In this document: positions 1,962 to 62,778 of the stretch, in pieces
How positions within the stretch are numbered: position 1 is the first letter of the stretch
Layout of the letters: each line of letters begins with the position of its first letter
Source of the DNA: Trichomonas vaginalis G3
Taxonomy: Eukaryota > Parabasalia > Trichomonadida > Trichomonadidae
Reading direction: 5' to 3'
DNA: 64,000 nucleotides
Assembly: GCF_026262505.1 (NCBI RefSeq)
Contig: NC_067206.1
Span: forward strand, 33,309,896 to 33,373,895
Position numbers and translations under genes: made by a program
Notes under the pieces: model-generated
Told to the model about the DNA's origin: nothing
The model's input: only the letters and a program-made list of their open reading frames with translations
Databases searched by the model: none

Positions 1962-2763
1962 TTACTTACCAATAAAATTTCTTTGTTGTGACACTTTCTC
2001 CGGTTTATAGGACCTCTCTCATATTCTATCTTGTCATATCTAAACTCATAGTCATGTATGTCCTCTAACCATCTCATAACGGTTTCCAAACCACTTTATC
2101 GGATGTAAAGTAAAAGCATGGATGGTTATGTAAAACGTCTAAAGTTTCTAAAGAGTCTCTCAAAGTCCAGTCTACTTGGTATTGAAAATCCCATGTGTTA
2201 TAGAACGGCGGGTCCACTATAAAGAAAACATTTTCCTTGTCTTTATATTTTTCATACAACTCTGTCCAACGACATCTCACAAACTCTATACCCTCAATAT
2301 ATTTTTCTATGTTCTTTTTGAAAACATTTGTATAGTTAAGATATAAAACTTTTGACATAAGTGTTTCAATGTCATGAACTCTTATAGAACCACTATATAA
2401 TAGTCTAGCAGATATACTATCCCAGTCAATATATTCTGCTTTTTTCAAAACCTCTCTCACAATATTTTTCTTATCTAATGGTATACTTTCCATCTTACCT
2501 ATAGGTATCTTTTCTTTTAACTCTTTCAATATATTGTTTGTGTCTGGTATATGTTTGAGACGGTTCATATAGTTGTCGAAGTCATTGCATATAATCTTTG
2601 AGTCTGGGAATACGGTATGGCACAAATGGGATATATAGAAACTTCCACCGAACAAATCTACAAATGTTAGACCATTCGGTAGTTTCTTAAGTTCTCTCAA
2701 TAGAATATCTTTACATCTACTCTTATTTCCAAAGAAGGGTAACGGTGGTTTTGTAAAATTCAT
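1946..2763 (-). pseudogene. D12-class (Dam-like) DNA N6-adenine methyltransferase, frameshifted near its C terminus
   Basis: From the ATG at 2763 a 229-residue frame begins with KPPLPFFGNKSR, resembling the K-x2-GxK AdoMet-binding start of Dam-type enzymes. FVDLFGGSF follows (motif I region), and near residue 187 VDPPF, a form of the catalytic DPPY motif. The frame stops after SDKVVWKPL. The next frame continues with residues matching the usual family ending (NRRKCHNKEILLVS), so one frameshift near 2080 probably truncates the gene; if bridged, it ends at 1946. Enzymes of this class methylate adenine in DNA, and in mobile elements they may mark or protect element DNA. Phe replaces Tyr in the catalytic motif. 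Neither E2 nor E3 has a counterpart. Confidence 0.7.
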
Positions 2764-3735
2764 TTATATATAATAATAAAAATGTTTTTTCCTGAAAAGT
2801 GACAGAAAAGTGACAAAACATGAAAACTACTCGGTCAAAGTCTTGTCAGTTTTGTAAAATAACCGTCCTATCTTGTTTTAAAATGGAGAAAAGGCTTCTC
2901 AAAGTATACTTCCTTGGAACGCCCGTAACTTTTCCTGTAGCGACGATAGACCCTTACTTGTCCGGACATAGTTATACTATTTTGAGCGCTCTACAAAAAA
3001 AGTCAACAGCGACGACTCTCAAAAATTTTTATGGGCTAGAAGGGGCGCAGCCCCTGGGAAGCCCCCTATACCCAAAAAACCTCATTTTATACTAAACATC
3101 TTCAGGGCTAGAGGGCACGAAGTGCCTGGAAGCCCCACTACCTTTTTTTTTTTTTTTTTTAAAACTATTATAACACATACATTAGGGATCTATTTTATCA
3201 TCAAGTTGCTTGCAGTTCATTTCGCAAAATTTGATTCGAGAATAGCTTCTAGACTACTGTCTAATTGAATTGTTAAACTTTATATTTTACGTAATAATAT
3301 TCTTTTTATTTCGTAAGAATTTGGCTAGAGTTATCTCTTCAATTTTGAAGCATTTTAATGTAATTAAAAGATGATGTACTTAATTTTTTTATCTTTTTTA
3401 CATGTTTCCATCTTCTATCTTTTTCTGATGCAGTTGCTCAATTTACAAGGCAAGTAAAACGCTTTGATCCAATGGACATTCTAGAATCTATAAGGAAAGA
3501 CCTTAACATCACATTTGTGCTTCTTTAATTGTTAACATGAGATATCAATAATGGATAGAATTTTGAAAGAACTTAAATTCTATCATAAAATTGCTTGATT
3601 CCTATTATTTTACATGCGTACAATCAGAAAATACAACCGAAATATGATGATGAACGATATGTTAAAAAGATAATATTGGTAAATGCGTTGGGAACAGATT
3701 GGAGGGAAAATTAAAATTAAAAAAAAATTGTGTTC
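2764..3735. other. E1 end and host spacer without genes
   Basis: No convincing gene. An open frame at 2820-3095 has no recognisable product. Two short hairpins sit in the related sequences at 3034-3064 and 3104-3136 (stems around GCA and GAA triloops), each inside a GGGCTAG...AAGCCCC frame. A T-run covers 3143-3160. The remainder to 3735 is A+T-rich host DNA. Confidence 0.5.
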
Positions 3736-18531: not shown

Positions 18532-18677
18532 GAGAAAGGGACAGACTAGCCCATTGTCACTTTTTAATTTAGCAAATGAACGCTTATGGAGTGGAGTTTT
18601 TGGGTAAATCTGATTTGCTTATAAATGAAATAAAATCAAAAGAAACCATATTGGCATTATATTATGCAAAAATAAAT

Positions 18678-19360
18678 GATCTTACTTAGTACTTTTAAAG
18701 TTAATTTCAGAAAAAATTTGACACAATGGTATCCGGCACATACAAGTGGTGTACAACCAAAATATAAGTTGGTTTAAACATATATTGCTATATCTCATGA
18801 TCTTACTTAGTACTTTTAAAGTTAATTTCAGAAAAAATTTGACACAATGGTATCCGGCACATACAAGTGGTGTACAACCAAAATATAAGTTGGTTTAAAC
18901 ATATATTGCTATATCTCATGATCTTACTTAGTACTTTTAAAGTTAATTTCAGAAAAAATTTGACACAATGGTATCCGGCACATACAAGTGGTGTACAACC
19001 AAAATATAAGTTGGTTTAAACATATATTGCTATATCTCATGATCTTACTTAGTACTTTTAAAGTTAATTTCAGAAAAAATTTGACACAATGGTATCCGGC
19101 ACATACAAGTGGTGTACAACCAAAATATAAGTTGGTTTAAACATATATTGCTATATCTCATGATCTTACTTAGTACTTTTAAAGTTAATTTCAGAAAAAA
19201 TTTGACACAATGGTATCCGGCACATACAAGTGGTGTACAACCAAAATATAAGTTGGTTTAAACATATATTGCTATATCTCATGATCTTACTTAGTACTTT
19301 TAAAGTTAATTTCAGAAAAAATTTGACACAATGGTATCCGGCACATACAAGTGGTGTACA
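18678..19360 (+). repeat. 121-bp tandem repeat, about 5.6 copies
   Basis: The unit starts GATCTTACTTAGTACTTTT and recurs at 18678, 18799, 18920, 19041, 19162 and 19283. The copies are practically identical, and the last breaks off near 19361. The 121-bp period is not a multiple of three, so it does not encode a repeated peptide. The near-identity of copies implies recent expansion. Confidence 0.9.
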
Positions 19361-19637
19361 ACCAAATCTTCGACTCGATGAACTTGTCATCGAGTTATAT
19401 TCCAGTGTTGTTCCTTCATTCCTGATTAAGTTGCAAATTAAAGGTCTGGATTCAGAGAGAAGTGTTAAAGTTATCAAAAAAGTCACAAGAGATTTCGAAG
19501 AAATGACACAATTTAAAAAAGTCGAATGCATCAGTATGCTTGGAGCTGTTCAGAAAGGTCTGAAAAATGATACACTTGATCCCAACATTGTTTACTCAAC
19601 ATTAAAAATATTATTGCAAAGAAAACATTTGATTTAA
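19281..19637 (+). CDS. Unknown protein partly encoded by the tandem repeat, 118 aa
   Basis: The ATG at 19281 sits at the boundary of the last repeat unit, and each upstream unit carries the same ATG with a different downstream frame. The first ~26 codons derive from the repeat (LLSTFKVNFRKNLTQWYPAH). The rest is unique and helical (LDELVIELYSSVVPSFL, ERSVKVIKKVTRDFEEM) and ends LLQRKHLI. No domain was recognised. It may be the remaining 3' part of a larger gene whose 5' end was replaced by the repeat. Confidence 0.35.
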   Translation: MILLSTFKVNFRKNLTQWYPAHTSGVQPNLRLDELVIELYSSVVPSFLIKLQIKGLDSERSVKVIKKVTRDFEEMTQFKKVECISMLGAVQKGLKNDTLDPNIVYSTLKILLQRKHLI

Positions 19638-40402: not shown

Positions 40403-40474
40403 TTATGAGAAACTCCATGAATTAAATAATACTCTTTCAACAAATGATTCCAGGTCGTTCGACTCATCATTTGA
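40403..40474 (-). pseudogene. Displaced 3' end of the Myb gene
   Basis: Read on the minus strand this piece continues the Myb frame that ends at the other side of E3. The codons after the TCAAA duplication give NDESNDLESFVERV and then SWSFS before a TAA at 40403-40405. The main part lies at 62047-62778; E3 separates the two. Confidence 0.65.
40470..40474. repeat. Left target-site duplication of E3, TTTGA
   Basis: Matches 62047-62051. Five bases match exactly; a sixth differs on either side (ATTTGA left, TTTGAT right). Confidence 0.65.
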
Positions 40475-41127
40475 AGTTAGTAAACATATCATGGGTACGG
40501 AGGCACTGCGTTCCACCTTACCCATTATATGTGAATTTGACACTTTACGAAACCATTAACGTATATTTTACAACACAAACGACAACACTAACTTAACCTT
40601 AAATATTTACAAAGCCACCAACCACTTCACCTCACTAATGTAAAAAATAAACGTTCTCACTTACAAAAGTATTGCAACTCCTCCCATTGCTGTGCTTCAC
40701 ATAACAGCTCATAATCTTCTGACTCACTTTCTTCTTCATATAGGTCAAAGTCACTGTCAAAATAAATGTTAGTAAGTTTTGACAAAGCTAATGAAACACG
40801 CTTACCGTTTGTATCGTATGCTTGTATAAACTTTCCATTATGCTTGTAGTCATAAACGCTCAAACTAACTTTACCCTTTCTCCCTCGTATCTGATAGAAT
40901 GTATTTTCACGAGGAACGAAGAAACAAATTCTTGAACTCATGACCGTTGTAGTTATCTCAATAGTTTTCGTCATTTATATAAAAATAAAATAAAAAATAA
41001 TGATATCACCACCCTCACACGTATGAAAACATAGCACAAAAATAAATTAGGTGAAGTGGTGAGATCTCACCCTTTTTTCACCTGTTTTTCACCCTGTTGA
41101 ATTCATTGCTTTATAACTCTCTTCCTT
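40475..41127 (+). repeat. Left terminal inverted repeat of E3
   Basis: 653 bp, complement of 61364-62046 apart from one ~27-bp gap and small indels. Carries one copy of the TIR gene and one GGTGAGATCTCACC palindrome (41058-41071). Confidence 0.9.
40657..40974 (-). CDS. TIR-borne protein, left copy, 105 aa
   Basis: Same gene as 61520-61840 at the other end. Residues from FFVPRENTFYQIRGRKGKVS onward agree, ending EEESESEDYELLCEAQQWEE and YFCK. Residues 9-17 differ (TTVMSSRIC versus NYNGHEFKNL). This copy lacks 4 bp and has gained 1 bp about 25 bp later, so the frame is lost and regained. The protein is small with an acidic tail. No family was recognised. Being in the TIR it is present twice and maintained by whatever keeps the repeats identical. 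Confidence 0.6.
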   Translation of the reverse strand: MTKTIEITTTVMSSRICFFVPRENTFYQIRGRKGKVSLSVYDYKHNGKFIQAYDTNGKRVSLALSKLTNIYFDSDFDLYEEESESEDYELLCEAQQWEELQYFCK

Positions 41128-49649: not shown

Positions 49650-50050
49650 ACACACAAAACTCATGAATTTTGTGTGTTTTCAGCATTATTTTTTTGCATT
49701 ATGACACGAAGTGAACTTTTGCACTTCGTCAAAAACTCATGAATTTGTGTGTTTTCAGCATTATTTTTTTGCATTATGACACGAAGTGAACTTTTGCACT
49801 TCGTCAAAAACTCATGAATTTTGTGTGTTTTCAGCATTATTTTTTTGCATTATGACACGAAGTGAACTTTTGCACTTCGTCAAAAACTCATGAATTTTGT
49901 GTGTTTTCAGCATTATTTTTTTGCATTATGACACGAAGTGAACTTTTGCACTTCGTCAAAAACTCATGAATTTTGTGTGTTTTCAGCATTATTTTTTTGC
50001 ATTATGACACGAAGTGAACTTTTGCACTTCGTCAAAAACTCATGAATTCT
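49650..50050 (+). repeat. 76-bp tandem repeat, about five copies
   Basis: The unit (ATGACACGAAGTGAACTTTT, then GCACTTCGTC, AAAAACTCATG and a TTTTTTTGC run) recurs at 49701, 49776, 49852, 49928 and 50004. Each copy holds the hairpin ACGAAGTG / CACTTCGT around an 8-base loop. The region is non-coding, between integrase and the first KilA-N gene. Confidence 0.85.
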
Positions 50051-52694: not shown

Positions 52695-55600
52695 ATGTAT
52701 CGGAAGTTGTCTAAGTTAGAACACTCGGAAATAAAACAACTTCTTACAGAAGCTAACATAGAAGTAGCAAAGCATTACGCAACAAACAAAAAAGCACTCG
52801 CTGACATCCTCAATGACTATAATGGTGCAATAAGTTATGATAGAATTCATGAGTTCATAAAGCCGCAACGCGGCGAGGACGAAGTCCATGCAAGAGCATT
52901 TCCTTTAAATGACGTTGCTATTGACTTATATCATAGACGTTCAGTACCTCATGATGTTCGTCAAGAGATGTTTGACATAACAAATGCGAACGTTGGTCAT
53001 ACTCGTAAAGCTCTTTCGCATGATGTTCGTCAAGAGATGTTTGACATAACAAATGCAAACGTTGGTGAAACACGAAAGAGAGACGACACACTGAAACAAC
53101 AGAGAAGAGAGATGTTTAAGAGCGCTATAGAACAAGTTCGCAAAGCTAACGATGTCATTCGTTCCATTGACGACAAACCAAAAGAAGGTGAGAGATGGTT
53201 AAAGAAAGATGAAGAGAATAGGAAGAGAAATGTGAAGTCAGGCAATAGACTCATTGACTTTAACATCGAAGCTTTAGATGAACCAAACAGAGACTACTTA
53301 CACAAACATTTCGGTAAGGTTTTCATGAGACTCTTAGAGAAGATTAAAATAAACTCCCAACAAAGATGGATAGTATGTTATAAACTTGGTGGAAAGTATG
53401 AATGTTCTACGTTAAACCTCAATAATATTGGAACATTACTACATCAGCTCTTGAAGGAGAACTTTATATCAGAGATAGAAGCAAATGCTGCAGGTATTGT
53501 TGAAATGCACTATGACTTCTTCTTGACAAACATAAAGAATCTTACTGAAATAAAGATGTATGATTTAACAGAATATGAAGGCTTAACGATGTCAGATGTA
53601 AAGAAAGGCAAACCAAAAAAGAGACCATATAGAGATGAAAGCACACTGACAGAAAGACAGAAAAGATTATTGAACAGACTTAAACAAACAGGAGATAAAC
53701 AAGATATAGATGACTTCTGGAATGAAATCCTTGGTGAAAAGAAGTTTTATAAGAAGAGAAGCGGTCAGTTCTGGAAGTATCTTTGCACATTACCTATAAA
53801 TCTTGAGCGCTACCAAATCTTCAATGAATTGAACAAAAGAACTGCAGCACTTATGACAGAAGACAATTGTTTCGTTTATGCTTGCATTCAGGCTGAAGTA
53901 GATGAAGAAACTATTGACCACATGAGAGAAGTCATTCGTGTTAGAGACTTTCCTCAAAGTAAAGTACAAGAAATTTCTGACGCAACAGGTATAGCATTTA
54001 ATGTTACCATTGGTTACTTCAATGACTCAAGACATAATGAAATAAAGAGATACATACCAAAAGAATGTGAAACTATTCGAACTATTGACTTACTTCTTGT
54101 TGAAGACCACTACATGCTAAATGAAAGATTACCAATGACAACATATTTCATTCGCAACTATATAGAAATCTTGAAGGAGTGTGGTGGAATGAACATTGAG
54201 AAACAGATGAAGATTTATACAAAGAGAGATGGTAAATACATTGTTCGCATGGATAGAACTACACCGCTATGGGATGTTATGAAAACATTGTGGGAGTGCA
54301 AATATTTCGAACCTATTTCTTATGGAGAACTTTTCACATATACGACTGACTTATATAAACAGAACCTTGCACCATTTAAAGATTTGACATATGCTCCAAA
54401 GTATTGTGTACAACTGAAGAAGAAAGCAGAGTCAAAAGAAGTAAATAAAAATAAGTGCAAGTTCATTCCTGAGCACGTTTTCTTTGCTGACTTTGAGTGC
54501 AGTACCGATGGCTTTCATAAAGCTTTTAACATCTGTTATGACAGTGAAGATGGTTCAGTGAGTGAAAGCATTTGGGGTCAGAACTGTGCAACAGAATTTT
54601 TGGAGCGACTTCCTGACAAGAGTTTAATATATTTCCATAACCTCAGTTATGACATAAACTTCATCTTAAGACACATGACAGAAGTGAAAGGAACTCCCAT
54701 CATTAAAGGTTCACGAACAATGCAAATAACTGGCTTATATAAAGGAAGGGCAATTATTATAAAAGACTCTTACAGTGTTATAAATAAGAAACTTAAACTA
54801 TTTCCTGCTATGTTTAACTTACAAACAGGACCGAAAGAAGTATTTCCATACAACTACTACAGCAGTGTTTTGTTAGCAAATGACAACAGAACTGGTGTCA
54901 TTTCTGAAACATGTAAGTTTGTAAAAGATATTGAAACGTTCATGAAGAACATAGATTCCATCAAAGGTTGCAGAATAGATGAGAACCACTTCGACATAGA
55001 AAAATATAGCACGTTTTATTGCAAACAAGATGTAAGAATTTTAAGAGAAGGTTTTGTTAAGTTCCGCAATGACATATTGAAAGAATTTGATTTAAACGTT
55101 TATGACTACGTTAGTATTTGTTCAATTGCTAACAAATTATTTGAGAACAGAGTGTACTTCCCGAATGGAAATCTTTATGACCTCTCAAATAAACCAAGAG
55201 AATTTATTTCGAGATGCATTCAAGGTGGAAGATGTATGTTGTCAGATAACATGAAACAAAAGAGCAAAAAGAAACTCATTGCTGACTTCGACGCTGTTTC
55301 ATTATATCCATCCGCTATAGCAAGATTGTATACTTTAGAAGGAATTCCAAAAGTATTGAAGGATGAGATGCTAAGCACAGAGTATCTCATGAGACATTTA
55401 TTCGATGACGACCAAAAGGAACGCATTGGTGAAAAGTTTATGTCCGGCTTCTTTGTTCTCATTAAGATAACAGAGATTGGAATACATAGACACTTTCCTT
55501 TAATAGTTTGTGACCCTGAACTAAATCCAGAACTTAACGTTCCCAGAAGTTCAAACACTTGCTGTCTCATGTATTTGACCATATAACATTACAAGACCTC

Positions 55601-56545
55601 ATAAAATATCAAGGTGTCAAATGTGAAGTGTTGCAAGGATACTATTACGATGGAAACAGAGATATTAGAATAAGAGATGAAGTAAAGAAGTTGTTTGAGT
55701 TAAGGTTAAAGTATAAGAAAGAAGGAAATCCTTTGCAAGAAAATATAAAGCTCATTCTGAACAGTATTTATGGCAAAACTATTCTATCTCCTATTGAGTC
55801 AAAAATAACCATAGTAAATGACAAAGATGCTATAAGATATGCCATCAGAAACTACAACCATATAGTGAAGTTCGAAGGTTTGGATGGTTCAGATAAAACT
55901 ATTTTCAAGCTAACGAAAAGCATTTGCAGACACTTTAACTTCTGTCCACTTGGTGTTAACATTCTATCTATGTCGAAGAGAATAATGTGTGAAGTATTCT
56001 GTACTGCTGAAGATATGGGTCTTCAAATATTTTACCAGGACTGTGATAGCATGCATATTTTCAATGAAGACATACCAAAGCTTGCAGCAGAGTTTAAGAA
56101 GAGATACGGTCGCGAACTTATAGGAAAGAACCTTGGTCAATTTCATTCTGACTTCGCAGAAATAACACCTGGAAAACAAAGTTTAGCATACAAGTCAATA
56201 TTTTGTGGAAAGAAGACCTACATAGACTTACTCACTAACGATTTAAATGAAGTTGCATTCCATGCACGTTGCAAAGGTGTCAAACAAGACGTCCTTGCTT
56301 TAACAGCAAATGAAATGTTTCCTGAAGCTATACAATGCTATTACAATGAAGATAAGAACATTCACATACCTGTTGGAACATATGACAAAGACTCTGAGTT
56401 CAGTTTAATGAAACTTTACAAAGCACTTTATGACGGTCAAGAGATTGGATTTGACTTATGTAAGTCATGTCAACCTTGCTTTGAAGAGAAGTTTAACTTC
56501 TCAATAACGACTAAAACAAGCTTTATTCGTAAGTTGAAGTTCTGA
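52695..56545 (+). pseudogene. Protein-primed family B DNA polymerase (pPolB), one frameshift
   Basis: Frame 1 (52695-55586, 963 codons) and frame 2 (55559-56545) join at one shift near 55575. Order of parts: N-terminal helical region with a 23-residue tandem duplication (HDVRQEMFDITNANVG twice); a middle domain (MTEDNCFVYACIQAEV); exonuclease motifs FFADFECSTDG (near 54485), YFHNLSYDINFIL and YCKQDVRIL; polymerase motif A ADFDAVSLYPSAI (55284), motif B ILNSIYGKTIL (55755), motif C YQDCDSMHIF (56035) and KGVKQD. This is the protein-primed polymerase of Polintons, which would replicate the element from its TIR ends. Motif C has Cys for the usual Thr (DCDS). Confidence 0.88.
52950..53087 (+). 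repeat. 69-bp in-frame tandem duplication in pPolB
   Basis: CATGATGTTCGTCAAGAGAT starts at 52950 and again at 53019; it duplicates 23 codons with few changes. Confidence 0.85.
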
Positions 56546-56562
56546 GGTCATTTATTTTTGTC

Positions 56563-56690
56563 AGCAGTGAGATCATGAATGAGGTCATGAATGAGATCAT
56601 GAATGAGGTCATGAATGAGGTCATGAATGAGGTCAGCAATGAGATCATGAATGAGGTCATTATTTTTGTCAGCAATGAGGTCATTCGTGA
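56563..56690 (+). repeat. 12-bp tandem repeat (GAATGAGGTCAT-type)
   Basis: About nine units alternating ATGAGATCATGA and ATGAGGTCATGA with some AGCA variants, immediately after the polymerase stop codon. Confidence 0.85.
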
Positions 56691-56713
56691 TAAAAATAAA
56701 GCTAGCGTAGATT

Positions 56714-58281
56714 TTACAATACAGCTATTGTAGAATTTAAGAGTTGTGCTTCAATGTAGAGACAGTCCTTATGGTCTGGAGGTAAGAACACTGGGCAGTT
56801 ATGGTCATGAGTGGAGAACATGTCTATCCAAAACTCACGATTGAAGCCAGTTAATTTATAGTATTTAGGATTTGGCAGTGGTGTAGTTCTTGTATGACCA
56901 ATGAACTCATTTTCAACTCCCTTACTTAAGTTTGAATATAATATAGCTTGCTTTCTATCCCAAATGCCAGGTGTTACAATCTTTGAAAATTCATTTTTCC
57001 TCGGAAGCATTGCATCATAATTGAAAACATTCTTGAAATCATCATTGGGTTCAGAGATTTGAAATCTTATACGTAATGGATTTTCTTTCTCTTTAGCGAC
57101 TTCATTGAATGGTGAGAATACAACAAACTGACAGTCATGAGTTCCATCTTCATTTTCATTAAATTCATAATGAAAGTCTATAAGTTGTGGCTGACTACCT
57201 TCTTCTTTCAGTTGTGCAAGAAACTCACGTAAAGGCTGTAAAGTTTGTACTTCAATGTTGAACTTTTTCTCGAACATCTCATTAAATGAAATCATACATT
57301 GCAACAATGTTGTATTGTTATATACGAAAACGATAAAAACAGTTTGACAGAAAAGTGACAACTTTACGTGTCAAAAATATAAAAAGTGATATTTTATTCA
57401 TCATTATCTTCTTCATAATTTATTTCATATTCTTCGTCTTACCAACAAAAGATGGGAATGTGAACAATTGCGGGCAATTTTTAGCCATTTTGGCTTGGAA
57501 CTAGAGCCTGCGAGGTACATGGATAGTATCAGTACCTCACAGGCTCTAGTTCTCTATATGGCGCCGAGAAATTTTGGTGAAATGTGGTCGCATTTCACCA
57601 AAATTTTTTCGGCGCCATAGGATGAATTGGAGGGTGAGAGATATTATTTCATACAATACTACTCTCACCCTCCAATTCCCAGCCAAAATGGCTAAAAATT
57701 GCCCGCAATGTGAACAATTGCGGGCAATTTTTAGCCATTTTGGCTTGGAACTAGAGCCTGCGAGGTACATGGATAGTATCAGTACCTCACAGGCTCTAGT
57801 TCTCTATATGGCGCCGAGAAATTTTGGTGAAATGTGGTCGCATTTCACCAAAATTTTTTCGGCGCCATAGGATGAATTGGAGGGTGAGAGATATTATTTC
57901 ATACAATACTACTCTCACCCTCAATTTTAATTACTTAAACTCATTCTATTTTTTTGACATGTAAATGTCACTTTTACTGAGATCTGACACAATGTCAGAT
58001 CTCTTTTTTTCGTATATAAGAGTATCGTCTTTAAAGTATTTGTATATGTGAATGTTTTGGGCGCTTAAAGACTGTTCGTCATTTTCTATCTCGACTTGAA
58101 GTATAAAGTCAACCTTTCTGAAAGCACGTGTTATATACATAGATGTTATGCCAATGTACTTCTCTTCATTTATGTTCACAATCCAGTCTGTTGGAAACTT
58201 AAACGTTACTCTGTTCCCCTTTATTTTGACGTCAGGGTTTTCACTACTGAACGCAACAGATAAAGGTATTTGTCTATACAT
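56714..58281 (-). pseudogene. Minor capsid protein interrupted by the cloverleaf repeat
   Basis: The N-terminal part (57946-58281) starts MYRQIPLSVAFSSENPDVKI and has VTFKFPTDWIVNINEEKYIG and ITSMYITRAFRKVDFILQVE. The C-terminal part (56714-57361) contains NTTLLQCMISFNEMFEKKFN, NVFNYDAMLPRKNEF and ends EAQLLNSTIAVL. The two parts match, in order, the single minor capsid gene of E1 (333-1180). Between them lie an acidic piece (EEYEINYEEDNDE near 57371-57440) and about 460 bp of cloverleaf repeat. I read this as one gene with an insertion and frameshifts. Alternatively the C-terminal part is a separate gene starting at the ATG at 57295 (193 aa). Confidence 0.5.
57461..57923. repeat. 250-bp tandem repeat folding into a four-way cloverleaf
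   Basis: Unit 1 is 57461-57710; unit 2 is 57711-57923, truncated. In unit 1 four stems use most of the sequence. The closing stem is 57467-57495 with 57681-57709, 29 bp perfect. Arm 1 is 57498-57518 with 57532-57552, 21 bp with one mismatch and a 13-base loop. Arm 2 is 57557-57584 with 57591-57619, one mismatch and one bulge, 6-base loop. Arm 3 is 57624-57640 with 57662-57678, 17 bp perfect, 21-base loop. Unit 2 keeps arms 1-3 but loses the 3' strand of the closing stem. No coding potential. Confidence 0.9.
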
Positions 58282-58305
58282 TTAATTCGGATAAAAATAA
58301 ACCAT

Positions 58306-58545
58306 TTACTCTTTCTTTGCTTCAGCTTCTTCTCTAGCTTTCTTCGCCAGCAAACGTGGGTTCTTCTGTCTTCCAGCAGCTAATGCAGCAAGTTGTTTTT
58401 CACTAAGTTTTCTCTTTGGTCTCTCTGGATTTTGTTCTTGTTTTTGTTCCTTCAGTTCGGATAAAATTTGCTCACGAATTTCTTTCTTCAATGCTTCAAC
58501 ATCTATGACCCCTTGGGTCTTGTCCGTAGGGCTTGTCTGAGTCAT
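58306..58545 (-). CDS. Small basic helical protein, 79 aa
   Basis: The ATG at 58545 (MTQTSPTDKTQGVIDVEALK) follows a TTTTTTATCTG box, so I prefer it to an upstream TTG. The protein is one long charged helix (EIREQILSELKEQKQEQNPE) with a basic segment KRKLSEKQLAALAAGRQKNP like motifs I recall in other Polinton and large-virus small proteins. It probably binds DNA or packs in the virion; not proven. Confidence 0.5.
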   Translation of the reverse strand: MTQTSPTDKTQGVIDVEALKKEIREQILSELKEQKQEQNPERPKRKLSEKQLAALAAGRQKNPRLLAKKAREEAEAKKE

Positions 58546-58590
58546 TTGACTGCAGATAAAAAACAAAATTAAAACTTTAACCGATGTAAA

Positions 58591-59024
58591 ATGAGCTTGT
58601 CAAAATCAGAGCGAGAGTTATTATATTAAATGACGCCAGAGGAATACAACATCCTTTCTATTACGTAAGTCAGAGTAAAGATGGTAAAATATACGTAAGA
58701 AAAAGAAAGGTTCCATTAGCGAATGCAGAGAGCGACAACATTAAGGTGTATGGCAAGGGTGAAGTCCACGAAGCCCATGTTAAGCCTTCTATTCAAACTG
58801 AAAAGTCAATAGAACCAGAAGAAAAGAAGCCAGATGTACTTTCAATAACGAACCAAGAGCTTATTGCAAAGTTCGTGAATTTCATTGAAAAACAAACCGA
58901 GTCAAAGAACCCTGACCCGCCAGTGAAAGAAGTTGAGACAAAAGAGAATGTACAGTTCATTGAAAATGTCAAGAAACAACTTCCACCACGAATGCCAAGA
59001 AGAAGAGTGAGAATAATGAAGTAA
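58591..59024 (+). pseudogene. Unknown basic protein, early frameshift
   Basis: The ATG at 58591 (MSLSKSERELLY) hits a stop. The frame shifted by one from about 58600 is open to 59024: VKIRARVIILNDARGIQHPF, YYVSQSKDGKIYVRKRKVPL, then a Lys/Glu-rich linker and a basic end (PPRMPRRRVRIMK). This implies a single early frameshift. It lies directly before the capsid gene with a TTTTTATC box between. Role unknown; the basic ends suggest DNA or capsid contact. Confidence 0.45.
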
Positions 59025-61143: not shown

Positions 61144-61380
61144 ATGACAAATAAAGTCACTGAAGCAATGAAACAAAAGTTTTTGGTAGAATACATTAAA
61201 TCAGGAACTATTCCAGAAGGTTTTTACATTCATACTATGAAGGATGGTAGAGTTCAGTTTAGAAAGATAAAGCAACCATTAGATAGAGAAGGTATATTAA
61301 GGAAGATTAAACTTCATGAGGACAACATTGCTGAACTTAGGAAGAAGTTAGAAGAGTTGGAGAAAGGAAGAGAGTTATAA
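61144..61380 (+). CDS. Small coiled-coil protein ending inside the TIR, 78 aa
   Basis: The ATG at 61144 (MTNKVTEAMKQKFLVEYIKS) follows a TTTTTAT box. A small beta hairpin (GFYIHTMKDGRVQFRKI) is followed by a coiled coil (NIAELRKKLEELEKGREL). The last 5 codons and the stop lie in the right terminal inverted repeat. At the left end the same TIR bases end a different gene (41103-41426) in another frame. Confidence 0.5.
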   Translation: MTNKVTEAMKQKFLVEYIKSGTIPEGFYIHTMKDGRVQFRKIKQPLDREGILRKIKLHEDNIAELRKKLEELEKGREL

Positions 61381-62046
61381 AGCAATGAATTCAACAGGGT
61401 GAAAAAACAGGTGAAAAAAGAGGTGAGATCTCACCACTTCACCTAAATTTATTTTTGTGCTATGTTTTCATACGTGTGAGGGTGGTGATATCATTATTTT
61501 TTATTTTATTTTTATATAAATGACGAAAACTATTGAGATAACAAACTACAACGGTCATGAGTTCAAGAATTTGTTCTTCGTTCCTCGTGAAAATACATTC
61601 TATCAGATACGAGGGAGAAAGGGTAAAGTTAGTTTGAGCGTTTATGACTACAAGCATAATGGAAAGTTTATACAAGCATACGATACAAACGGTAAGCGTG
61701 TTTCATTAGCTTTGTCAAAACTTACTAACATTTATTTTGACAGTGACTTTGACCTATATGAAGAAGAAAGTGAGTCAGAAGATTATGAGCTGTTATGTGA
61801 AGCACAGCAATGGGAGGAGTTGCAATACTTTTGTAAGTGAGAACGTTTATTTTTTACATTAGTGAAGTCGTTTGTGAAAACGTTAGTGAGGTGAAGTGGT
61901 TGGTGGCTTTGTAAATATTTAAGGTTAAGTCAGTGTTATCGTTTGTGTTGTAAAATATACGTTAACGGTTTCGTAAAGTGTCAAATTCACATATAATGGG
62001 TAAGGTGGAACGCAGTGCCGCCGTACCCATGATATGTTTACTAACT
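61364..62046 (-). repeat. Right terminal inverted repeat of E3
   Basis: 683 bp, complement of 40475-41127 with one extra ~27-bp stretch near 61868-61895. Carries the right TIR gene and a GGTGAGATCTCACC palindrome at 61422-61435. Confidence 0.9.
61520..61840 (+). CDS. TIR-borne protein, right copy, 106 aa
   Basis: Probably the intact version. It starts MTKTIEITNYNGHEFKNLFF, has VPRENTFYQIRGRKGKVSLS, then a beta-rich centre (GKFIQAYDTNGKRVSLALSK) and the acidic tail EEESESEDYELLCEAQQWEE. A TTTTTATATAA box directly precedes the ATG, and a GGTGAGATCTCACC palindrome lies 85 bp upstream. The left copy (40657-40974) differs by a short frame-shifted stretch. The protein family is unknown. A gene inside the TIR is placed at both element ends, near where protein-primed replication would start. 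Confidence 0.65.
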   Translation: MTKTIEITNYNGHEFKNLFFVPRENTFYQIRGRKGKVSLSVYDYKHNGKFIQAYDTNGKRVSLALSKLTNIYFDSDFDLYEEESESEDYELLCEAQQWEELQYFCK

Positions 62047-62778
62047 TTTGATTCAATTATTTCTTGTGTGAATAAAGCTATTAAATCTGTTTCGTCTTGA
62101 GATTTGACACCAGAATCATTTACTTTTACCAACTTGTTTTCGTCTTGAGATTTGACACCAGAATCATTTACTTTTACCAACTTGTTTTCGTCTTGAGATT
62201 TGACACCAGAATCATTTACTTTTACCAACTTGTTTTCGTCTTGAGATTTGACACCAGAATCATTTACTTTTACCAACTTGTTTTCGTCTTGAGATTTGAC
62301 ACCAGAATCATTTACTTTTACCAACTTGTTTTCGTCTTGAGATTTGACACCAGAATCATTTTCTTTTCTCGATTTTCTTGCATTTTCTTGAGGTTTCACC
62401 ACAGCTGTTTGATTTTTAAACTTCTGCCATCTGTTCTTCAAGTTTATATCAGTTCTTCCTGGGAAAAATTTCGCAATTTGGGCCCATTTTGAACCATACT
62501 CCATGTAAAGTTTCCTCAATTTTTCATCTTCTTCCTGACTCCAATCATTATGAGAGATATTTGGAGATAAATAATTTACAAATCTCTCGCGTAATTTATT
62601 TTGATCTCGAAGATGTATGTTCTTGTTTTTTTACTCAACTCTGCAAACTTTTCCTCAAGTTTTCTCCAACCTTTGGCACCATGTTCTCTAACATATTTTA
62701 GGATCTCCTCATCTTCATCCTTTGTAAATTTCTTCTTCGGGATGTACTTACTACTTCCCAAAAAAGTGATTTTGACAT
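62047..62778 (-). pseudogene. R2R3-type Myb transcription factor, frameshifted and cut by E3
   Basis: From the ATG at 62778 (MSKSLF) a shift in a run of six T leads to KKFTKDEDEEILKYVREHGA (first Myb repeat). A second shift in a run of seven A near 62625 leads to NDWSQEEDEKLRKLYMEYGS and KWAQIAKFFPGRTDINLKNR (second repeat with conserved Trp). Then come five near-identical 16-residue repeats (NDSGVKSQDENKLVKV) and FTQEIIES, where E3 enters. The frame resumes at 40474. Trichomonad Myb proteins bind promoter elements, so this was presumably a host regulator and is now inactive. Confidence 0.75.
62092..62358 (-). repeat. 48-bp coding minisatellite in the Myb gene
   Basis: About 5.5 near-identical copies of a 48-bp unit encoding NDSGVKSQDENKLVKV; the plus strand of a unit starts TCGTCTTGAGATTTGACACC. 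Confidence 0.9.

Follow-up and report, generated by a model that had tools for sequence, protein, structure and literature searches.

An IS481-type transposon of Trichomonas vaginalis carries an array of palindromes with near-constant centre spacing

Introduction

Bacterial REP palindromes are arranged in BIME mosaics, and the Drosophila FB foldback elements are strongly self-complementary transposons whose internal tandem repeats form the terminal inverted repeats (TIRs). The available text on bacterial REP and REPIN sequences (PMC3116915, PMC3733652) describes palindromic units in mobile or mobilised groups, and that on mitochondrial repetitive hairpin-forming elements (PMC2800124) describes invasive hairpin-forming repeats. 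For Trichomonas vaginalis itself, the available text of Kojima & Bao 2023 (PMC10045372) reports the IS481EU/Banshee transposons, with an IS481-like DDE transposase, short TIRs, TNT..AYA termini, target duplications of 4, 15 or 25 bp and non-autonomous families; the words 'hairpin', 'palindrom-' and 'tandem' are absent from its available main text. CRISPR-like repeats are claimed for this species in the available text of PMC10696477, while the available text of PMC13155455 does not mention Trichomonas.

Here, we analysed a window of 64,000 nucleotides (contig NC_067206.1, also called C4, positions 33309896-33373895) and searched the genome that contains it (180.9 Mb, 86 contigs). The window holds a 706-bp element that resembles IS481EU/Banshee in its TGT left end, short TIRs, 4-bp target duplications, non-autonomous state and host species and, through its relatives, in an IS481-like DDE transposase; it differs in its right end, AGA instead of AYA, and in possessing an array of palindromes. 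Unlike FB, the element has short ends, and its array is internal. The REP and REPIN groups (PMC3116915, PMC3733652) are bacterial, whereas this array is eukaryotic, lies within a DDE transposon and comprises four longer palindromes per unit with dyads at a near-constant 62.5 bp, and in contrast to the mitochondrial hairpin elements (PMC2800124) the T. vaginalis element is nuclear, has target duplications and belongs to an identified transposase type. Palindrome-lattice arrays in T. vaginalis transposons were not found in searches of open-licence PMC papers, and Repbase may hold these elements.

Results

The original prediction described a tandemly repeated 250-bp unit that pairs with itself over most of its length as a four-way cloverleaf, in which a 29-bp closing stem encloses three hairpin arms, and whose second copy lacks one closing strand. 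The repeat and its arms were recovered as described: positions 57457-57677 recur at 57707-57927 as a direct repeat with an offset of 250 and 99% identity, and the arms are a 21-bp stem with one mismatch (57498-57552), a stem of 11 + 16-17 bp containing a slip (57557-57619) and a perfect stem of 17 bp (57624-57678). Folded as DNA, 57461-57710 reached -104.2 kcal/mol compared with -26.3 +/- 3.3 for shuffles (z -23.75), and folded as RNA it reached -164.6 (z -23.3), with 0 of 200 shuffles as good in either case, in line with the predicted self-pairing. The closing strand is indeed missing from the last unit, and this ending is constant, since 17 of the 18 rows compared, corresponding to 13 of 14 distinct arrays, end alike; the exception is an array interrupted by an A-run (L028). 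An RNA model scanned across the window matched the array region only (four matches, both strands). A search of Rfam over 56000-59000 returned 23 matches up to E 1 (best Thr_leader, E 0.00037) and none at the gathering score, and a ribozyme, a viroid-like element or a known RNA was rejected on this basis. Further tandem repeats in the window lie at 18676-19366, 49656-50048 and 62090-62367, with periods of ~121, 76 and 48 bp.

The cloverleaf itself did not survive. The two proposed closing strands, 57467-57495 and 57681-57709, are a perfect 29-bp match; the latter pairs just as completely with 57717-57745, from which a 7-base loop separates it, as with the former, 185 bases off. When two units were folded together (57461-57926), the local hairpin formed and the closing stem was lost. 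The unit is therefore a row of four palindromes, X-Y-Z-Y', and the proposed closing stem is a circular permutation of the local 29-bp Y' hairpin, for which reason the cloverleaf was rejected as the functional unit. On the forward strand, the array starts with the right strand of a broken Y' (57467-57495, the left of the proposed closing strands) and continues with X (57498-57552, odd-centred), Y (57557-57619, even-centred), Z (57624-57678, odd-centred) and Y' (57681-57745, perfect 29-bp stem, loop GTGAACA at 57710-57716, odd-centred in family A) of unit 1, X (57748-57802) and Y (57807-57869) of unit 2, and a Z (57874-57927) in the truncated last unit, which joins the right end. Because two other arrays (L065 and L077) begin with complete Z and Y' palindromes, the half-palindrome on the left looks like the scar of a deletion that produced the short element.

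The array lies inside a non-autonomous DNA transposon of IS481 type with one full and one truncated unit (57316-58021, forward strand). In the window, TTGTAT is followed by 706 bp from the left TIR TGTTATATACGAAAA (57316-57330) to the right TIR TTTTCGTATATAAGA (58007-58021), both placed on the forward strand by comparison of element ends, and then by GTATCG, the target-site duplication GTAT occupying 57312-57315 and 58022-58025. The surrounding DNA is a Polinton/Maverick (40474-62047) with terminal inverted repeats at 40474-41127 and 61364-62047 and with Pox_A32, rve and DNA_pol_B_2 inside. As predicted, the insertion splits a Polinton gene: uninterrupted copies delimit a 3' part (56714-57315) and a 5' part (58022-58281) on the reverse strand and show the gene as a single open frame of 285 aa (e.g. 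L036 1115-1972), open in most of 150 copies among the matches listed. Pfam searches of both halves, for which the original prediction had named a minor capsid protein, gave zero matches. In all 29 other Polinton copies compared (L032-L060, drawn from 40 scored of 1400 candidates), the site is empty, reading ...TTGTATCG... without interruption and with a single GTAT. Elsewhere in the window Polinton, 52695-56545 contains two successive overlapping frames, the first without a Pfam match and the second matching DNA_pol_B_2 in part (328-409 of 468), a sign that this copy may have a broken polymerase gene.

Genome-wide, the unit gave 489 matches (40 of 494 first-look candidates scored), and the left and right ends gave 387 and 219 first-look candidates, 40 scored each. 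Across the loci compared, the sequences beside the arrays are nearly identical over ~145 bp to the left and ~90 bp to the right before they diverge; the right part is absent in L028. Exact 4-bp target duplications, which vary in sequence among insertions, flank 23 of the 24 distinct insertions having both termini; the exception, L077, has none. Measured between both ends, these copies form size clusters of 456, 706, 956, ~1206, ~1454 and ~1706 bp, corresponding to the truncated unit together with 0 to 5 full ones, and longer arrays occur, such as a run of eight consecutive units (C2:10732050-10734045). The other copies, empty sites and target duplications, for which the original prediction had proposed to look, uphold its idea of a mobile structural DNA element: 57316-58021 is a gene-less short member of an IS481-type (IS481EU/Banshee-like) family that landed in a Polinton gene. 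The array travels as a passenger with this transposon, which sits at unrelated sites, and does not belong to the Polinton. Tc1/mariner was rejected, the duplications being 4 bp long, varied in sequence and not TA, as was a 9-bp Mutator-type duplication between tandem copies, after the element ends had been located and the IS481-type frame recognised. In viral contigs, searches by transposase peptides or by a Y-type core pattern found no relatives outside this genome, records near which may be left out there; three stretches fitted the peptide pattern, none of them a relative.

Longer copies revealed the transposase. Both ends are present in L075, L076 and L077, and the left end in L078 and L079. 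The open frame of L078 has an integrase core (Pfam rva_4 1.6e-12, rve 6.6e-11) and matches the NCBIfam models for IS481 family transposase (2.9e-22; its 79.5 bits fall short of the equivalog cut-off of 224) and IS3 (2.5e-14). The transposase frame ends in an acidic tail, the final codons of which survive towards the left end of the window element as a 3'-end remnant on the reverse strand (57394-57435, ..EEYEINYEEDNDE stop; window frame by eye), with its upstream continuation in L075-L078. Comparison with relatives places beside it, at the internal deletion junction, a 19-bp stretch that repeats transposase gene sequence exactly but in inverted orientation (57436-57454, forward strand). In L077, the right end is followed by about one array period, a non-coding stretch, the transposase frame and the left end, the array thus being flanked by the right end and by the frame's 5' side. 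L075 and L076 have 4-bp duplications and, at the array position, a lone palindrome Z in place of any full unit, so the array is dispensable for movement. At C2:6910487-6914069, GTTT flanks both sides of a pair of loci, one with the right end and several units (L069) and one with the left end and gene pieces (L079), which we infer to be a single 3.6-kb element with ~600 bp unread between the two. A 48-bp minisatellite of SAQQQLRPSNGTSPLS-like coding repeats precedes the transposase core (L077 ~2270-3520, L066 1302-1493), and its copy number differs among gene-bearing copies.

Of the features reported for IS481EU, the IS481-like DDE transposase was found in the relatives and not in the gene-less window copy, the exact 4-bp duplications agree, and the terminal signature agrees in part: the left TGT fits TNT, and the right AGA is off AYA by one base. 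Because of this one base we use the label IS481-type rather than IS481EU; family A, to which the window element belongs, is of IS481 type and closest to IS481EU, membership in which is unproven.

The family letters A-I are our own labels. A second kind of element (L072, family B; 783 first-look candidates, 40 scored) has about ten palindromes in a row and a related end, and DNA matches to family C (L083), at ~68-98% identity, led to arrays of families D (L088, L089, L105), E (L090, L091, L100-L104, L106, L107), F (L092), G (L093-L095) and I (L096). Arrays of D, E and F share the 250-bp period and the cyclic order X-Y-Z-Y'. Family B has four palindromes in a row without a tandem partner, and L094 of family G has a different long inverted repeat. 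Similar ends suggest that families B and D are also of IS481 type, an assignment limited to these two; by eye, the family B ends, TCT..ACA, are compatible with TNT..AYA, the module lies in different orientations relative to the ends in A and B, and no target duplication is evident in L081 (family B). After ~2186 in L028 the array stops in a long A run, and at 270-410 in L088 it adjoins a T run, in both cases beside a repeat holding GGGCTTCCAGGC.. or its complement.

Nine modules (A, B, C, D, E, F, two of G, I) were aligned over 287 columns. In the 101 pairs of the four local hairpins, standard pairs filled 91.0% of 905 cells compared with 73.6% in shuffles, 59 pairs had two-sided changes compared with 34.4, and covariation was 0.493 compared with 0.185; 0 of 500 shuffles reached any of these values, a comparison that relatedness favours, since related sequences can beat shuffles without structure. 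With partners slid by 1-3 columns, 33-48% of cells paired, a control tilted towards the structure, which was read from the same sequences. Mean pairwise identity among the modules was 0.64 for columns that pair and 0.48 for those that do not. Within families, two-sided changes numbered 0 in A (32 distinct units from 141 matches, overlapping loci included), 0 in D (22 distinct units) and 4 in E, 3 of them Watson-Crick (13 distinct units, 88-100% identity). The co-variation of the arms for which the original prediction had proposed to look is thus seen between families, whereas the arms of family A show little variation at all. Sites assigned to stems by geometry were less variable than other sites in A (3/152 vs 11/98, Fisher p 0.003), E (12/152 vs 26/97, p 0.0001) and D (6/152 vs 14/97, p 0.004).

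Dyad centres were scored blind to their spacing, with 25 positions per arm and at least 17 matches. In a first set of 23 hairpin-selected regions, in which some families are represented by more than one copy and six loci were taken whole with extensive flanks, consecutive spacing was exactly 62.5 bp in 128 of 221 cases and within 61-63.5 bp in 186; in eight D/E loci fetched afterwards, the corresponding counts were 124 and 141 of 149. At the same score, 56 kb of window outside the array contained 28 dyads. In most families, odd-centred X and Z (core GAGGTA..TACCTC) alternate with even-centred Y and Y' (core AAACTT..AAGTTT); family A is an exception, its Y' being odd-centred and its spacings 62.5, 63.5, 62 and 62. 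Some units are off by 1-3.5 bp in L102 (E) and L105 (D), and other steps occur in B (64.5, 67.5, 90 and 125 bp), C (72.5 and 139), G (69) and I (82.5 bp). The hairpins of a family D locus (L088) span 61, 56, 63 and 54 bp, and their centres are still 62.5 apart, so the regularity belongs to the centres. A step of 62.5 bp would equal six helical turns at 10.42 bp per turn. That pairing and a near-fixed 62.5-base spacing are kept despite changed letters suggests that the shape of the DNA itself matters.

Selection on a single RNA strand should make G-U outnumber A-C mismatches. In 118 distinct palindromes in module orientation, G-T and A-C numbered 97 and 85 (p 0.41), about equal, and in the nine-module alignment 25 and 35; these counts would favour a constraint at the DNA level. 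Recent one-sided changes lean towards G-T (A 4:0, E 8:4, D 4:2; sum 16:6, p 0.05), a hint of selection at the RNA level.

Discussion

We interpret the element, with a probability of about 0.7, as an IS481-type transposon with a phased dyad array near its transposase gene, in which the role of the array is the inferred part. This interpretation builds on the mobility, target duplication, transposase-bearing relatives and variable unit number of the element, and on pairing and spacing across diverged families. Array length would change in 250-bp steps by unequal exchange or slippage, and the transposase would act in trans on gene-less copies. Located next to the transposase gene and one end, the array might work in double-stranded or cruciform form, and dyads six turns apart might face the same side of the helix; the self-complementary arms could form cruciforms or paired half-sites, with X and Z offering GAGGTA..TACCTC and Y and Y' offering AAACTT..AAGTTT. 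Conceivably, the array is a phased platform on which proteins assemble repeatedly to tune expression of the transposase or synapsis of the ends; protein binding, cruciform formation and an effect on transposition are speculative predictions from sequence. The slight departure of family A and the steps of 64.5-139 bp in B, C, G and I count against a phased array, and complementary arms can also be maintained by template switching without selection, and the spacing can be inherited from one ancestor. A tentative proposal, to which we would give somewhat less than even odds, sees in the array a novel class of cis-acting DNA: a phased lattice in which odd- and even-centred palindromes alternate, with a dyad at each sixth helical turn, and in which selection acts on pairing and geometry rather than on most of the letters, so that the array would serve as a shape-coded scaffold, double-stranded or cruciform, on which a protein array controls the transposon or its chromatin. 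To our knowledge, a transposon component whose shape and spacing are better preserved than its letters would be unusual for eukaryotic nuclear DNA.

The main rival is a neutral structure, in which the palindromes originated once through fold-back copying, template switching or gene conversion restores one arm from the other, and the 62.5- and 250-bp spacing is inherited without function. Arm correction within palindromes is a known process, the units of family A scarcely differ (32 distinct among 141 matches), L075 and L076 have transposed despite lacking any full unit, and two-sided changes are rare inside families. The spacing, however, holds despite the low identity between modules and unequal hairpin lengths, and symmetric correction alone need not yield stem sites that are less variable in three families; we regard a purely neutral origin as serious but rather unlikely.

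The array could alternatively act at the RNA level, transcribed as a ladder of hairpins that serves as a small-RNA source, a decoy that engages a Dicer-like enzyme or a structured transposase UTR. The very stable RNA fold and the 16:6 lean of recent changes would fit, as would the small RNAs that map to all kinds of repeats in T. vaginalis and the Dicer orthologue that it encodes, both according to the available text of PMC7845603. Set against this are the mismatches without RNA-type bias in both larger samples and the Rfam matches, all of them weak, and an RNA would predict neither a constant centre spacing nor both orientations relative to the ends, which makes this explanation doubtful. The viral hairpin telomere or replication/packaging signal of the original prediction, a Polinton feature with a true four-way junction, had in its favour the position inside a Polinton and the closed four-way fold of a single unit. 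For the window copy it is refuted by the empty sites in the 29 other Polinton copies; the element's own ends and target duplications, the local hairpin that supplants the closing stem and the palindromes of family B that lack a tandem partner speak against it as well, and we consider it extremely improbable.

Many arrays, of varied families and lengths, in one well-studied parasite genome make it testable whether the palindromes are selected as DNA structure or as RNA or protein sites, and on the transposon reading some of the hairpin-rich 'unknown repeats' in T. vaginalis would be pieces of transposons. Composite arrangements also occur: a family E array is fused directly to a 5'-truncated family B end (L090 880-1010), and the coordinates C2:2602636-2603808 suggest the same E/B neighbourhood at a second locus. 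Hairpin elements of family B recur at ~9.8-kb steps in C3:21.42-21.61 Mb and often at ~15-kb steps in C5:7.55-8.25 Mb, as if embedded in large tandem duplications.
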